Shown: piece by piece, positions 8,673 through 27,097 of the stretch
Layout of the letters: each line of letters begins with the position of its first letter
Numbering within the stretch: the first letter of the stretch is position 1
Assembly (NCBI GenBank): GCA_030693515.1
Contig: JAUYAK010000083.1
Location: 1 to 64,000 of the forward strand
Direction of reading: 5' to 3'
DNA length: 64,000 bases
Source: Opitutaceae bacterium
Lineage (GTDB): Bacteria; Verrucomicrobiota; Verrucomicrobiia; Opitutales; Opitutaceae
The notes under the pieces: generated by a model
Told to the model about the DNA's origin: nothing
Database searches by the model: none
What the model saw: the letters and a program-made list of their open reading frames with translations, nothing else
Position numbers and translations under genes: made by a program

Positions 8673-9748
8673 GCGGGCGCGGCTCAGAGGTAGCGGCGGG
8701 CGTCCCTGCCCGCCGAGGTTTGGAAAGTAGGGCGGGTCTTCGACCCGCCCTCGGTGGCGAGCACTCAACGCGCGAAAGGGCGGGTCACAGACCCGCCCTA
8801 CTTCGGCGGGCCGGGACGCCCGCCGCTACGCGAGCGATCGGAGCTTTGCTCGCGTCCGTGATCTTCGGGGTTGTCGCCGCCCGTGCGCAGCAGATCGCGG
8901 ACACGGCGTTTGCGCCGCCCATTGCGTCGCCCGCCTTCGCCGAGGGCCGCGGCCCGGTCGTCGCAATCGACGAGGCGCACGGCAATTTTCACACGGCGAC
9001 GGGGCGCTATGTGGCTTTCGCCAATCTCGCGCGCCGCGACGGTTTCGTCGTGCGGGCGGCGACGGAAAAATTCTCTGCGTCCGCGCTGCGTGATCTCCGC
9101 GTGCTCGTGATCGCGAACGCCCTGCACCCGCGCAACGCCTCCGGCACCTGGTCGCTGCCCACGCCGTCCGCCTTCACGCCCGCCGAGATCGAGGCGGTGG
9201 CGGCCTGGGTGCGCGAGGGTGGCGCGCTGTTGCTCATCGCGGACCACATGCCGTTTCCCGGCGCGGCCGAGGCGCTCGCGGCGGCGTTCGGCTTCACGTT
9301 CAGCAACGGCTTCGCGCAGGATGCCGCGGGCAAGAGCCGGCTCGTGTTCCGCCGCGCCGATGGGTCGCTCGCCGATCACGCGGTCGTGCGCGGGCGCTCG
9401 GCCGCGGAGGCGATCACCGAGGTGGTCGCGTTCACGGGCAGCGCGTTTCGCGGCCCGCCGGAGGCGGTGTCGATCTTCGTGCTGGCGCGGGGCAGTGTGT
9501 CGCTGGAGCCGAAAGTCGCGTGGCAGTTTCCACCGGAGACGCCCCGGGCCGACGTGTCCGGCTGGTCGCAGGGCGCGCTCGTGAAAGCCGGCCGCGGCCG
9601 CGTGGCGGTCTTTGGCGAGGCGGCGATGTTCTCCGCGCAGCGCGCTGGCCCTGACAAACGCCCGATGGGCATGAACGATCCCGCGGCGAAACAGAATCCG
9701 CAGTTTTTGCTGAATGTCCTCCGCTGGCTTTCCGGTGTAATCGAATAG
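8669..9748 (+). CDS. DUF4350-like secreted protein, start disturbed by a palindromic repeat
   Basis: Up to 359 residues. The body (VVAIDEAHGNFHTATGRY ... VAAWVREGGALLLIADHMPFPGAAEAL) matches the DUF4350/GATase-like group: a Rossmann-like fold with GGxLLLIADH, usually near transport or surface proteins, no known reaction. A hydrophobic signal segment (GALLASVIFGVVAARA) appears only around residues 62-77 when translation starts at the ATG at 8669, which overlaps the sulfatase stop as ATGA. The stretch between is the nested palindrome at 8689-8829 read in frame. Alternative starts directly before the signal are TTG at 8846 or GTG at 8858. The longest coordinates are given; the true start is unresolved. 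Confidence 0.65.
   Translation: MSGRGSEVAAGVPARRGLESRAGLRPALGGEHSTRERAGHRPALLRRAGTPAATRAIGALLASVIFGVVAARAQQIADTAFAPPIASPAFAEGRGPVVAIDEAHGNFHTATGRYVAFANLARRDGFVVRAATEKFSASALRDLRVLVIANALHPRNASGTWSLPTPSAFTPAEIEAVAAWVREGGALLLIADHMPFPGAAEALAAAFGFTFSNGFAQDAAGKSRLVFRRADGSLADHAVVRGRSAAEAITEVVAFTGSAFRGPPEAVSIFVLARGSVSLEPKVAWQFPPETPRADVSGWSQGALVKAGRGRVAVFGEAAMFSAQRAGPDKRPMGMNDPAAKQNPQFLLNVLRWLSGVIE
8689..8829. repeat. Nested palindromic repeat, family B inside an outer arm pair
   Basis: Outer arms: GTAGCGGCGGGCGTCCC near 8690 and its complement ending near 8829, about 27 bases each with one mismatch. Inner arms: AAGTAGGGCGGGTC at 8725-8751 and complement at 8776-8803, about 26 bases. Each inner arm is itself a short palindrome (GGGCGGGTC..GACCCGCCC). 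The inner pair is the same family as the element at 27015-27097. The whole unit could fold as one hairpin of about 140 bases just after the sulfatase stop. Confidence 0.85.
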
Positions 9749-20570: not shown

Positions 20571-22976
20571 TCAGCGCTTCTTTTGCAAAGCCGCGTTGAA
20601 CCAGTCTCCGCCCAGCGACTGCGGCGCGATCGGACGATTTGTAGGCGGGGTGCCCTCACCCCGCTTTTGCGGACCGGAGCGGGGTGAGGGCACCCCGCCT
20701 GCATTCTGCTTCGGCCCAATCTGTGGATTGCTCCGCATCGAGAGCGCGATCCGCTGCCGCGCCAGATCGATCTCGGTCACGGTCACGCGCACTTTCTGGC
20801 CGGGCTTCACCACGGTGGCGGGTTCCTTCACGAAACCGTCGGCCAGTTGCGAGACATGCACGAGCCCGTCCTGGTGGACGCCGATGTCCACAAACGCGCC
20901 GAAGGCCGTCACGTTGGTCACGATGCCCGGCAGCTTCATGCCGGGTTTCAGATCCTCCGGCTTGTTGACGCCGGCGGTGAAACTGAAAGCCTCGAACTGT
21001 TCGCGCGGGTCCCGGCCGGGCTTGGCCAGCTCGGCCATGATGTCGGTGAGGGTGGGGAGGCCCACGTCGGCGGTGACGTAATTTTCCAGTTTGATCGCGG
21101 CGCGGAGTTTTCCGTCGCGCAGCAGGTCAGGGACAGTCGCGCCGCAGTCGGCCGCCATTTTTTCGACGAGGGCATAGCGCTCGGGGTGGACGGAGCTGGC
21201 GTCGAGCGGATGCGCGCCGTCGTGGAGGCGGAGAAAACCGGCGGCCTGCTCAAACGCCTTGGGGCCGAGGCGCGGCACTTCCTTGAGATCGGCGCGCGAT
21301 TTGAACGGCCCTTTTTCGTTGCGGCGCGCGACGATCGCGGCGGCCGTGGCGCTGTTGAGTCCCGAGACGTAGCTCAGGAGCTGCTTCGAGGCGGTGTTGA
21401 GTTCGACGCCCACGCGGTTGACGGAGAGCACGACGGTGTCGTCGAGCGAGCGCTTGAGCGCCGCCTGATCGACGTCGTGCTGGTATTGGCCGACGCCGAT
21501 GGATTTCGGGTCGAGCTTCACGAGCTCGGCGAGCGGATCCATCAGGCGGCGCCCGATCGAGACCGCGCCGCGCACCGTGAGATCGTGATCGGGGAATTCC
21601 TCGCGCGCGGCCTCGCTCGCCGAGTAGATGGACGCGCCGGATTCGTTGACCATCACGATCGGGATCGTCGCGGGCAGGCCGAGCGTGCGCACAAACGCCT
21701 CCGTCTCGCGCCCCGCGGTGCCGTTGCCGATGGCGACGGCCTCGACCTTGAAGAACTGCACGAAGCCGAGGAGCTTCTCCTTCGCCTCCTCCGCGTGCCG
21801 GTCGGGGAAGATCACGTCGTTGTGCAGCAGCTTGCCCTGCCGATCGAGGAGCACGGTCTTGCAGCCGGTGCGGAAGCCCGGGTCGATGGCCATCACGGCG
21901 CGCTGGCCGAGCGGGGCGGCGAGGAGCAGCTCGCGGGCGTTGTCGGAGAAAATTTTAATCGCGGCCTCGTCGGCGCGCTTCTTCGACTCGAGGCGCATCT
22001 CGGTCTCCATCGCGGGCGAGAGCAGGCGCTTGGCGGCGTCCTGCACGGCGAGCGCGACGTGGTCCGAGCATGTCTTGGGGTAGGGCGAACCGTCCCCGGT
22101 GAGCCGCGGCTCGGCGGGGACGCCTCGCCCTACCTTCACAAACAACTGCTGCACTTCGGCGAAGGCCATCGCCTCATCGGGCAATTGCACGCGCATCATG
22201 AGAAACAGCTCCTTCTCCCCGCGGCGCATCGCGAGGATGCGGTGCGAGGGCGCCTTGGCGAGCGATTCGCTCCACGCGAAGTAGTCCTTGTATTTCGCGG
22301 CCTCGGGATCGGCTTCCTTCCCGGGCAGGACCTTCGACGAGACGACGGCGTCTTTTTGGAAGACGGCGCGGAGCCGGGCGCGGGCGTCTTTGTCGTCGGC
22401 GATGCGTTCCGCGAGGATGTCGCGTGCGCCGGCGAGCGCCTCATCGGTCGAGGTGATTTTGGCCGCGAGATTCTTGCCGTCGTCCGGGGTGTAGTCGCGG
22501 CCGACGTAGGCCTGCGCGGCCGCCAGCGGATCGGTGGCGGGGTCCTGCGCCCAGAGCAGCTCGGCGAGCGGCTCGAGGCCCTTCTCCTTCGCGATGGTCG
22601 CCCGGGTGCGTTTCTTGGGGCGGAAAGGCAAATAGATGTCCTCGAGGACCGCGAGCGTGTCAGCGGCGCTGATCGCCTTCTGCAGTGCGGGCGTGAGGAG
22701 ATTGCGTTCCTGCAGCGAGGCGAGAATCGAGGCGCGGCGCTCGTCGATGGCGCGCATCTGTTCGAGCCGGTCGCGGATGGCGGTGATCTGCACTTCGTCG
22801 AGTTCGCCGGTGACCTCCTTGCGGTAGCGCGCGATGAACGGCACCGTCGCGCCTTCGCCGAAGAGCTGCGCGGTGGCGGCGACTTGGAAGACCTTCACGT
22901 TGAGCTCGGCCGCGAGGCGGAGCACGTGGTCGGGATTCGGGGCGGTGGAATGGGCCGGGGTGGCGACAGCGGACAT
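20571..22976 (-). CDS. tex: Tex, S1-domain transcription accessory protein, with two in-frame palindrome insertions
   Basis: 801-residue nucleic-acid-binding protein of the Tex/YhgF family. N-terminal helical part (FIARYRKEVTGELDEVQI, LPFRPKKRTRATIAKEKGLEPLAELL), YqgF/RNase H-like core (AIDPGFRTGCKTVLLD, AIGNGTAGRETEAFVR), helix-hairpin-helix region (GVGQYQHDVD, LNSATAAAIVARRNEKGPFKSR) and a C-terminal S1 domain (PGIVTNVTAFGAFVDIGVHQDGL). Start is the ATG at 22976; the longer frame upstream runs through the divergent thioredoxin gene. Two unusual inserts: residues around 282-299, encoded by the palindrome at 22079-22134, and a tail of about 30 residues after the S1 domain, encoded by the palindrome at 20643-20700. 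No frameshift or stop interrupts the frame. Confidence 0.93.
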   Translation of the reverse strand: MSAVATPAHSTAPNPDHVLRLAAELNVKVFQVAATAQLFGEGATVPFIARYRKEVTGELDEVQITAIRDRLEQMRAIDERRASILASLQERNLLTPALQKAISAADTLAVLEDIYLPFRPKKRTRATIAKEKGLEPLAELLWAQDPATDPLAAAQAYVGRDYTPDDGKNLAAKITSTDEALAGARDILAERIADDKDARARLRAVFQKDAVVSSKVLPGKEADPEAAKYKDYFAWSESLAKAPSHRILAMRRGEKELFLMMRVQLPDEAMAFAEVQQLFVKVGRGVPAEPRLTGDGSPYPKTCSDHVALAVQDAAKRLLSPAMETEMRLESKKRADEAAIKIFSDNARELLLAAPLGQRAVMAIDPGFRTGCKTVLLDRQGKLLHNDVIFPDRHAEEAKEKLLGFVQFFKVEAVAIGNGTAGRETEAFVRTLGLPATIPIVMVNESGASIYSASEAAREEFPDHDLTVRGAVSIGRRLMDPLAELVKLDPKSIGVGQYQHDVDQAALKRSLDDTVVLSVNRVGVELNTASKQLLSYVSGLNSATAAAIVARRNEKGPFKSRADLKEVPRLGPKAFEQAAGFLRLHDGAHPLDASSVHPERYALVEKMAADCGATVPDLLRDGKLRAAIKLENYVTADVGLPTLTDIMAELAKPGRDPREQFEAFSFTAGVNKPEDLKPGMKLPGIVTNVTAFGAFVDIGVHQDGLVHVSQLADGFVKEPATVVKPGQKVRVTVTEIDLARQRIALSMRSNPQIGPKQNAGGVPSPRSGPQKRGEGTPPTNRPIAPQSLGGDWFNAALQKKR
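20643..20700. repeat. Perfect palindromic element (family C) within the 3' end of tex
   Basis: Two perfect 23-base arms, AGGCGGGGTGCCCTCACC and so on, at 20643-20665 and 20678-20700, around a 12-base loop. On the minus strand it is read as codons for GGVPSPRSGPQKRGEGTPP, directly behind the S1 domain of Tex, so the element supplies a tail rather than a stop. Confidence 0.93.
22079..22134. repeat. Palindromic element (family D) inside tex
   Basis: 56 bases, two 28-base arms differing at only four positions: GGTAGGGCGA..CGTCCCCG..GAGCC and its complement with no spacer. On the minus strand it codes for VGRGVPAEPRLTGDGSPYP between LFVK and the conserved VALAVQDAAKRLL helix of Tex, keeping the frame. 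Confidence 0.92.
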
Positions 22977-25574: not shown

Positions 25575-27020
25575 ATGCCCGCCCGCCCCTTCATCCACGC
25601 CGACTTCCTCCTCGGCAACAAGCAGGCCCGCGAACTCTACCACCGCTACGCGGCGGCCGAGCCGATCTACGATTACCACTGCCACCTGCCGCCCGATCTT
25701 ATCGCGAAGAACCACCAGTTCGCCGACCTCTCCGAACTCTGGCTGGGCGGCGACCACTACAAATGGCGCGCGATGCGCACCAATGGCGTGCAGGAGAAAT
25801 TCATCACGGGCGATGCGTCGCCGCGCGAGAAGTTCCAGGCCTGGGCCGAGACCGTCCCCCACACCCTGCGCAACCCGCTCCACCATTGGTCCGCCCTCGA
25901 GCTTAAGCTCTACTTCGGCATCGAGGAGCTGCTCGACGGCAAGTCCGCCGAACGCATCTGGAAAAAAGCCAACGCCCGTCTCGCCCGGCTCCGCGTCCAC
26001 GATCTGATCAACATGTCCAACGTCGCCGTCATCTGCACGACCGACGATCCCGCGGACTCCCTCGCGCACCATCAGGCGATCGCGGCCCAGCCCGGCAAGC
26101 TCAAGGCCCGCGTCTATCCCGCGTTCCGCCCCGACAAGGCTCTCGCCGTCGGCAGCCCCGCCGGCTTCAACGCCTGGGTCGACAAACTCGCCGCCGCCGC
26201 GGGTGGCAGCTTCGCGAGCGCCGGCATCAAGACCTTCGATGATCTCCTCGGTGCGCTGAAAAAGCGCCACGACGATTTCCACGCCATCGGCTGCCGCGTC
26301 TCCGATCACGGCCTCGAGAGCGCACTCGCCGAGTCCTGCACGCACGCGCAGGCCCGGATGATTTTCGACGCCGCCCGCCGCGGCCGCGCCGCGAACGCCG
26401 ACGAAGCGGCGCGCTTCGGTTCGTATCTGATGCTCGAGTTCGGCCGCTGGGACGCCGCGCGCGGCTGGACCAAGCAGCTCCACCTCGGCGCGCTGCGCAG
26501 CAACAACACCCGCCTGCTCGCGAAGATCGGGCCCGACACCGGCTTCGATTCGGTCGGCGATTTCCCGCAGGCCGTCGCGCTCTCGCGCTACCTCAACGCC
26601 CTCGACTCCACCGACCAGCTCCCGCGCACGATCCTCTACAACAACAACCCCGTGGATAATTACGTCCTCGGGACGATGATTGGGAATTTCCAGGACGGCT
26701 CGATCCCCGGCAAGGTCCAGTTTGGCAGCGGCTGGTGGTTCCTCGATCAGAAGGAAGGCATGGAGTGGCAGATGAACGCGCTCTCGAACCTCGGTCTGCT
26801 CTCACGCTTCGTCGGCATGATCACGGACTCGCGCAGCTTCGTGAGCTACCCGCGCCACGAATATTTCCGCCGCACGCTCTGTAATCTCCTCGGCTCCGAC
26901 ATGGCCGCCGGCCTCGTCCCGAACGACCTGAAGGTCGTCGGCGCGATGGTGAAGAACATCTGCTTCGCCAACGCCCGCGACTACTTCGGCCTCACCCTCG
27001 CGAAGGAATTCTCCAAGTAG
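25575..27020 (+). CDS. uxaC: Uronate isomerase (glucuronate/galacturonate isomerase)
   Basis: 481-residue cytoplasmic amidohydrolase-superfamily isomerase that converts D-glucuronate to D-fructuronate and D-galacturonate to D-tagaturonate. Seen: N-terminal metal motif YDYHCHLPP (His36 and His38 region), DLSELWLGGDHYKWRAMR, NPLHHWSALELKLYFG, CTTDDPADSL, QLHLGALRSNN, LYNNNPVDNY, FGSGWWFLDQKEGMEWQMNA and GMITDSRSF with YPRHEYFRR. All match UxaC in order and length. The stop codon TAG lies inside the palindromic repeat that begins at 27015. Together with the UxaE-like gene it forms the core of uronate catabolism. Confidence 0.95.
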   Translation: MPARPFIHADFLLGNKQARELYHRYAAAEPIYDYHCHLPPDLIAKNHQFADLSELWLGGDHYKWRAMRTNGVQEKFITGDASPREKFQAWAETVPHTLRNPLHHWSALELKLYFGIEELLDGKSAERIWKKANARLARLRVHDLINMSNVAVICTTDDPADSLAHHQAIAAQPGKLKARVYPAFRPDKALAVGSPAGFNAWVDKLAAAAGGSFASAGIKTFDDLLGALKKRHDDFHAIGCRVSDHGLESALAESCTHAQARMIFDAARRGRAANADEAARFGSYLMLEFGRWDAARGWTKQLHLGALRSNNTRLLAKIGPDTGFDSVGDFPQAVALSRYLNALDSTDQLPRTILYNNNPVDNYVLGTMIGNFQDGSIPGKVQFGSGWWFLDQKEGMEWQMNALSNLGLLSRFVGMITDSRSFVSYPRHEYFRRTLCNLLGSDMAAGLVPNDLKVVGAMVKNICFANARDYFGLTLAKEFSK

Positions 27021-27097
27021 GGCGGGGTCTGTGACCCGCCCTCGCGTCCGATCGCGCTGTGGCGGTGCAAGGGCGGGTCACAGACCCGCCTTACTCC
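27015..27097. repeat. Palindromic repeat, family B, overlapping the uxaC stop codon
   Basis: Arms AAGTAGGGCGGG..TCTGTGACC at 27015-27042 and the complement at 27069-27097, each arm itself a short palindrome (GGGTCTGTGACCC). Same family as the inner part of the element at 8689-8829. The TAG stop of uxaC is the TAG of GTAGGGCGG, that is, part of the repeat. Confidence 0.88.

Follow-up and report, generated by a model that had tools for sequence, protein, structure and literature searches.

The 64,000-nucleotide window, which is the whole stretch of DNA analysed here (positions 1 to 64,000 of contig JAUYAK010000083.1 of an Opitutaceae bacterium, assembly GCA_030693515.1), holds a tex gene with a near-palindrome inside its coding frame. 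The question raised by this locus is what kind of DNA the near-palindrome is and how it came to be read as part of a protein.

A near-palindrome read in frame in tex

The features of the window on which the argument draws are the following.

20571–22976, minus strand: tex, 801 aa, open, with Tex_N, Tex central region, Tex_YqgF, HHH_3, HHH_9 and S1
22079–22134: REP dimer of family A, head-to-head, in frame in tex as residues 282–299 (repeat search and fold)
22080–22105, plus strand: REP half 1, GTAG head and hairpin GGC-GA-ACCG-TCCC-CGGT-GA-GCC (pattern and fold)
22106–22107: spacer GC, 2 bp, separating halves 1 and 2 (sequence)
22108–22133, minus strand: REP half 2, GTAG head and hairpin GGC-GA-GGCG-TCCC-CGCC-GA-GCC (pattern and fold)
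20641–20703: another REP dimer in tex, of family B (GTAGGCGGGGTGCCCTCACCCCGC), read in frame within the Tex C-terminal tail (repeat search, alignment and fold)
8690–8829: two intergenic REP dimers, one enclosing the other, each of a different further family (inner dimer 8727–8803 folded, outer one by eye)
27017–27094: REP dimer 3' of the open reading frame 25575–27020 (repeat search)

The inverted-repeat arms, 22079–22106 and 22107–22134, are 28 nt long with a gap of 0 and are 86% complementary, 24 of the 28 positions pairing. The 54-bp GTAG..CTAC unit (22080–22133) has its first base at a codon boundary and encodes VGRGVPAEPRLTGDGSPY, 18 codons of tex. Because the unit is self-complementary, insertion in frame 0 in opposite orientations gives nearly identical peptides, VGRTVPGEPRLGGDASPY or VGRGVPAEPRLTGDGSPY. 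The sequence-only reading had described a near-perfect 56-base palindrome read in frame within tex. The in-frame position at 22079–22134, read as 18 codons, is borne out and so is the near-palindrome; the single long unit is not, since it consists of two head-to-head REPs. This two-hairpin substructure had been overlooked, as had the second tex palindrome at 20641–20703. Palindrome scores of 16 for the linker element and 23 for the tail element compare with a maximum of 12 in 60 codon-shuffled whole genes, and tex without both elements scores 7.

That Tex keeps its frame and all its domains was confirmed: the 801-aa frame is stop-free, six Tex-related Pfam domains were found above cut-off, and a coding signal is present on both flanks of the insert. 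An NCBIfam profile search matched 31 families, and the best 25 of them include no Tex model. An AlphaFold model, built with 23 sequences (mean pLDDT 75.8, pTM 0.55), shows the insert residues 281–300 at pLDDT 51–53 as a coil between helices 268–279 and 303–351, and residues 761–790 of the tail as a low-confidence end at pLDDT 31–33. Both tex inserts are thus predicted to lie in low-confidence loops.

Anatomy of the element

Each half consists of a GTAG head, unpaired in the single-half fold, followed by the hairpin GGC-GA-NNCG-TCCC-CGNN-GA-GCC. The GTAG heads occupy both outer ends of the dimer, which therefore begins with GTAG and ends with CTAC. The halves differ from each other (ACCG/CGGT versus GGCG/CGCC), and the differences compensate inside each half's own hairpin, for which reason one long palindrome was rejected as the unit. 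A terminator was rejected because the element sits inside a gene, and a rickettsial-type RPE because the ends are GTAG and not CGTC.

Compensation was quantified with the two stem pairs that the search pattern leaves unconstrained. In the 30 halves from the genus (all rows at 2 mismatches, the 3-mismatch own-genome rows C37 and C43 being excluded) these pairs are standard in 52 of 60 cells, cells counting sequences, which are related, against a shuffled mean of 34.9, and none of 20000 shuffles was as good. When only distinct halves are taken (n = 21), 34 of 42 cells are standard versus 24.0, with 10 of 20000 shuffles as good. Among the family matches listed, which include at least 108 rows with zero mismatches, 211 of 216 free cells are standard and five complementary forms occur; GT/AC (47), GG/CC (36) and AC/GT (17) are commonest among the listed rows, and CC/GG and GC/GC are found too. 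A non-standard stem pair is present in 4 of these listed zero-mismatch rows.

As single-stranded DNA the whole element folds at -28 kcal/mol (z -7.2, equalled by 0 of 200 shuffles). This is far more stable than either half hairpin and counts against the REP-dimer reading. The half hairpins alone are unremarkable, with -5.8 and -6.9 kcal/mol, z-scores of -1.95 and -1.89, and 11 and 13 of 200 shuffles matching them. Since single-hairpin energies are not remarkable, the identification as REP is based on the covariation. The stretch 22079–22134 comprises two head-to-head GTAG-tagged REPs that form a 54-bp REP dimer of the REPIN/BIME type.

Other palindromic elements in the genome

The second tex element (20641–20703) has arms of 26 nt that are 96% complementary and is located upstream of the conserved end DWFxAALxKKR. 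In relatives that reach it, the C-terminal Tex tail is variable and of low complexity. Family B has 11 matches in the own genome and 0 in the control. At 27017–27094, the GTAG head of the dimer provides the TAG stop (27018–27020) of the open reading frame 25575–27020, which we take to resemble uxaC.

A survey for palindromes with arms of 20 nt or more covered 857,004 of the 6,646,699 bases of the genome, namely the window and contigs known for a family-B copy or a Y1_Tnp match, which is not a random sample. At least 44 were found, a lower bound because the known palindrome 27025–27087 was missed, and 5, one of them the tex linker element, were flagged as lying in an open reading frame with coding signal on both sides. 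In-gene elements are accordingly a minority. The tex tail element was detected in the survey and was left unflagged by the coding filter. Survey palindromes within a Pfam domain match occur in an Fe-ADH gene (C108:113100) and in a DUF1016/YhcG gene (C42:45844); the DUF1016/YhcG-type nuclease gene L304:5407-6714 has an in-frame palindrome in the stretch matched by the N-terminal domain model. The palindrome at C42:48877 follows closely on the final domain of a galactarate/altronate dehydratase and possibly stands between two genes that share a frame, and the one at C42:22762 belongs to an open reading frame without known family.

The tex linker in relatives

The insert peptide is carried by none of the 27 other aligned Tex sequences that cover the site; a 28th row, L116, stops short of it. 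There is thus no relative among these 27 that shares the residues without the palindromic DNA; such a relative would have refuted the sequence-only reading, and the outcome therefore favours it. The linker stretch is 138 nt in the window and 87 nt in 15 of the 27, which fits better with extension of the linker than with its replacement, the two options that had been proposed from the sequence. The net gain in tex is 51 nt for a 54-bp unit, and there is no clean empty site, which counts against an insertion. A small loss or drift at the tex site is possible. Taken with uvrA, where a 53-bp unit goes with a net gain of 45 nt (see below), the shortfall in tex indicates that insertion was imprecise or that the linkers have drifted.

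One Tex alignment comprised 22 of 80 named Tex loci and the window. In the codon-shuffle test a strong palindrome was found in two of 23 Tex linkers of the genus, that of the window and that of genome G005 (L114). The latter element is family-B-like with a GGAG head; the tex match of G005 spans residues 1–511 only, with a TAG reported within the matched stretch, and judged by its sequence this tex may be incomplete. Several candidates were not counted. A third linker REP in L100 (G008, GTAGGCGGGGCGACCCCGCC) scored 8 against a shuffle maximum of 10, the L106 linker exceeded its shuffles only with an 8-bp stem, and the Tex tails of L094 and L108 were marginally above their shuffles. Other linkers in the genus are longer or of low complexity by eye, for example with CTCAACT-type repeats in L096 and L106.

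Dispersal of family A

The sequence-only reading had proposed that the same palindrome be sought elsewhere in the genome, and it was indeed found. With the exact-ends pattern 5 places were detected, one of which (C36) has a different core. With the half pattern, 3 mismatches being allowed, there were 9 matches (4 in the reversed control), and contig C90 was added; the 3-mismatch match in C43 was taken as chance, while C37 is backed by the exact-ends pattern. This leaves about five family-A dimers (C37, C68, C75, C90 and the window), a low copy number. The tex copy is the only one with coding signal on both sides; the other copies examined are extragenic.

In the genus, 30 matches at 2 mismatches occur in 6 of 27 genomes, compared with 7 single reversed-control matches in 7 genomes. 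Genomes G000, G005, G010 and G011 have 6–9 matches each and G023 has one at 1 mismatch; the lone 2-mismatch match of G016 is no better than control. At the level of the family, with 1 mismatch, 43 of the 200 genomes, from 17 of the 49 genera, gave matches, while the control matched once overall; the highest count in the family survey was 90 halves, in G071. The compact asymmetric dimer with GC spacer recurs on own contigs C68 and C75, in G010 and in two other genera (L362, L363), and the flanks of the printed copies appear unrelated by eye. Two inverted REPs recur as one unit in G000, G010 and the two other genera; movement of the unit is what we infer.

In-frame insertions in other core genes

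The purL gene of G010 contains a family-A dimer in frame, with a peptide (VGRGVPAEPRLTGDGSPYL) almost as in tex. Its identity as purL is given by NCBIfam PRK05297 (520.8 bits, one stretch, residues 2–358 of 358). At this site the frame is kept in 23 of 23 readable genomes, with lengths of 123–219 nt. By eye, the inter-domain linker of purL (L223, L224, L227, L234, L243) holds differing palindromes or short tandem repeats by species, all in frame, which suggests that linkers of the purL type acquire repeats repeatedly.

In uvrA of G011 a family-A dimer is present in frame in a different reading, AGRTVPVSRGSSRTPRPT. The stretch measures 177 nt there, and 20 of 26 genomes, among them G000, have 132 nt, in a comparison that omits L278 (misaligned) and L281 (which repeats genome G010). 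In uvrA of G014 the in-frame element is a lone family-B REP. Separately, a second uvrA linker (L269, L270, L276) shows palindromic-looking in-frame inserts by eye, unrelated to family A.

Among the side results, the greatest surprise is an entire RAYT read in frame inside alaS. On own contig C44 (L147:305-3601) a complete RAYT with ends that look REP-like by eye lies within the alaS frame, and it matches NCBIfam NF047646 with about 82.2–82.9 bits (cut-off 80). Only one alaS was matched in the own genome. In 21 of 21 other readable genomes of the genus the RAYT is absent from the site, which is 81–258 nt long versus 663 here. We know of no precedent for an essential enzyme with a transposase as an internal domain. 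A literature search joining alanyl-tRNA synthetase and transposase with two further terms had PMC3733652 as its sole match, a paper in which alanyl-tRNA synthetase does not occur as a term.

Association with RAYT genes

In genome G138, the GT/AC subtype of the family-A REP stands on both sides of a RAYT open reading frame (L335:1366-1938, stop-to-stop) and so brackets it. Each side has a pair of REPs whose GTAG heads point inward, and both frame ends are overlapped by REP halves. Ten relatives gave 75 RAYT matches, of which 30 loci were scanned, and L335 is the only one with such bracketing. At 28 of these 30 loci a family-A copy is absent at up to 4 mismatches, and the RAYT locus L348 has a 2-mismatch copy farther off. 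In the own genome, neither family A (4 mismatches) nor family B (3 mismatches) was detected within about 1.5 kb of 12 RAYT loci that match NF047646, and seven Y1_Tnp loci, for which only family A was sought, are without a copy at 4 mismatches. The association with a RAYT is therefore seen for the GT/AC subtype in G138 and not at the 12 RAYT-model loci of the own genome. As a separate observation, a RAYT-like gene broken by a TAG (L146, own contig C89) adjoins repeats of the type CACGTCAGGTCTTGACTCTTGAC.

Possible origins of the insertion

In view of the above, the element is probably a non-autonomous GTAG REP dimer that was moved by a RAYT and landed in a loop of tex with the frame kept. In this mechanism, the REP dimer would be mobilised as single-stranded DNA by a RAYT transposase (HUH, IS200/IS605-like), and one copy would have inserted in tex, in a loop of the Tex central region that has a helix on either side. 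With 54 bp, equal to 18 codons that are open in frame, the unit would preserve the tex frame, and the protein would gain a Gly/Pro/Arg-rich, probably disordered loop. Insertions that are out of frame or disrupting would be purged, selection having kept the in-frame case. We infer that a RAYT made the tex insertion, that Tex is produced and functions in its enlarged form, and that the insert is neutral.

A different possibility, to which we give little weight, is that the palindrome has a role of its own at the level of tex mRNA or DNA, for example by slowing ribosomes, by stabilising or cutting the mRNA, or as a gyrase site, and is retained for that role with the peptide as by-product. The very stable fold of the whole element would suit such a role, and the main text of PMC3733652 considers REPs in the role of RNA elements and, with reference to other work, in that of gyrase targets. 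However, 22 of 23 tex linkers in the genus are without the element, hence no conserved role in tex is apparent. Moreover, of the roughly five family-A dimers in the own genome the tex copy is alone in having coding signal on both sides, and the remaining in-frame copies are in unrelated proteins.

Spread could also have occurred via general recombination or gene conversion between repeats instead of a RAYT. The own genome, at the loci scanned, is without a RAYT beside family A or B, as this would predict, but the seemingly unrelated flanks of the printed copies and the bracketing of a RAYT by a family-A subtype in G138 make it improbable. Two insertions in one gene, in a draft genome of 130 contigs, might point to a decaying tex pseudogene or a misassembled contig; given the stop-free frame of 801 aa, the six Tex-related Pfam domains and the coding signal flanking the insert, we regard this as very improbable. 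The idea that the linker is ancestral protein sequence and palindromic by chance finds some room in the variable linker length of the genus, where several Tex are longer, yet it is hardly credible with a score above all 60 codon shuffles and is refuted by the dispersed copies of the 54-bp unit, found between genes and in purL.

Relation to known elements and significance

The window dimer, which we favour as a RAYT-moved REP dimer, belongs to a known type, in that intragenic GTAG REPs have already been reported, mostly in Opitutus terrae. The main text of Di Nocera et al. (2013; PMC3733652) describes them in several species, with most in O. terrae, which makes the view that palindromes in coding DNA are known chiefly from Rickettsia out of date. 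According to the same text, two uvrA genes of O. terrae have double insertions in each, head-to-head GTAG-17 dimers of this species have spacers of 1–2 bp, and REPs supply TAG stops for neighbouring genes. The authors propose that linkers tolerate REP insertions, and they argue that those in repair genes may be more than coincidence, a view that keeps a function conceivable. Common to the O. terrae elements and those described here are the GTAG tag, the small hairpin, the head-to-head dimer, uvrA as target and the idea of linker tolerance. The main text does not mention tex, purL or alaS; the paper's target ORFs are listed in its Additional file 3.

Similarities to REPINs, as portrayed in the text of Bertels and Rainey (2011; PMC3116915), are the inverted REP doublet as unit, the hairpins, the compensatory changes and the RAYT link. 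The REPINs described there are mainly extragenic, whereas the window dimer is in a gene and has a spacer of only 2 bp. With RPEs the dimer shares that palindromic repeats are in frame in open reading frames of likely functional proteins. The R. conorii RPEs are CGTC-ended and CGTC repeats are unlinked to transposase genes in the main text of PMC3733652, in contrast to the GTAG ends and the RAYT-linked subtype found here. A RAYT open reading frame bracketed by REPs, as at L335, corresponds to the RAYT/REPtron arrangement in the texts of Nunvar et al. (2010; PMC2817692) and PMC3733652. The differences are that the bracketing unit at L335 is a family-A subtype in another genus, that the GTAG heads point inward and that REP halves overlap the frame ends.

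A bolder proposal, which we consider a long shot, is that REP dimers of Opitutaceae-like bacteria are portable linker cassettes that repeatedly lengthen the linkers of core proteins, the RAYT in alaS now being an inserted domain of an essential enzyme. If this were true, the alaS fusion would tie the survival of the transposase to that of the host. If the fusion of alaS and RAYT is real and expressed, a transposase would be kept as a domain of an essential enzyme. The present analysis adds tex, purL and alaS as sites of in-frame REP-type DNA, for which no priority in print is claimed. The results suggest that, in this lineage, core-protein linkers acquire differing repeats from species to species with the frame kept, and tex, purL and alaS form a natural experiment on which loops of a protein can accommodate mobile DNA.
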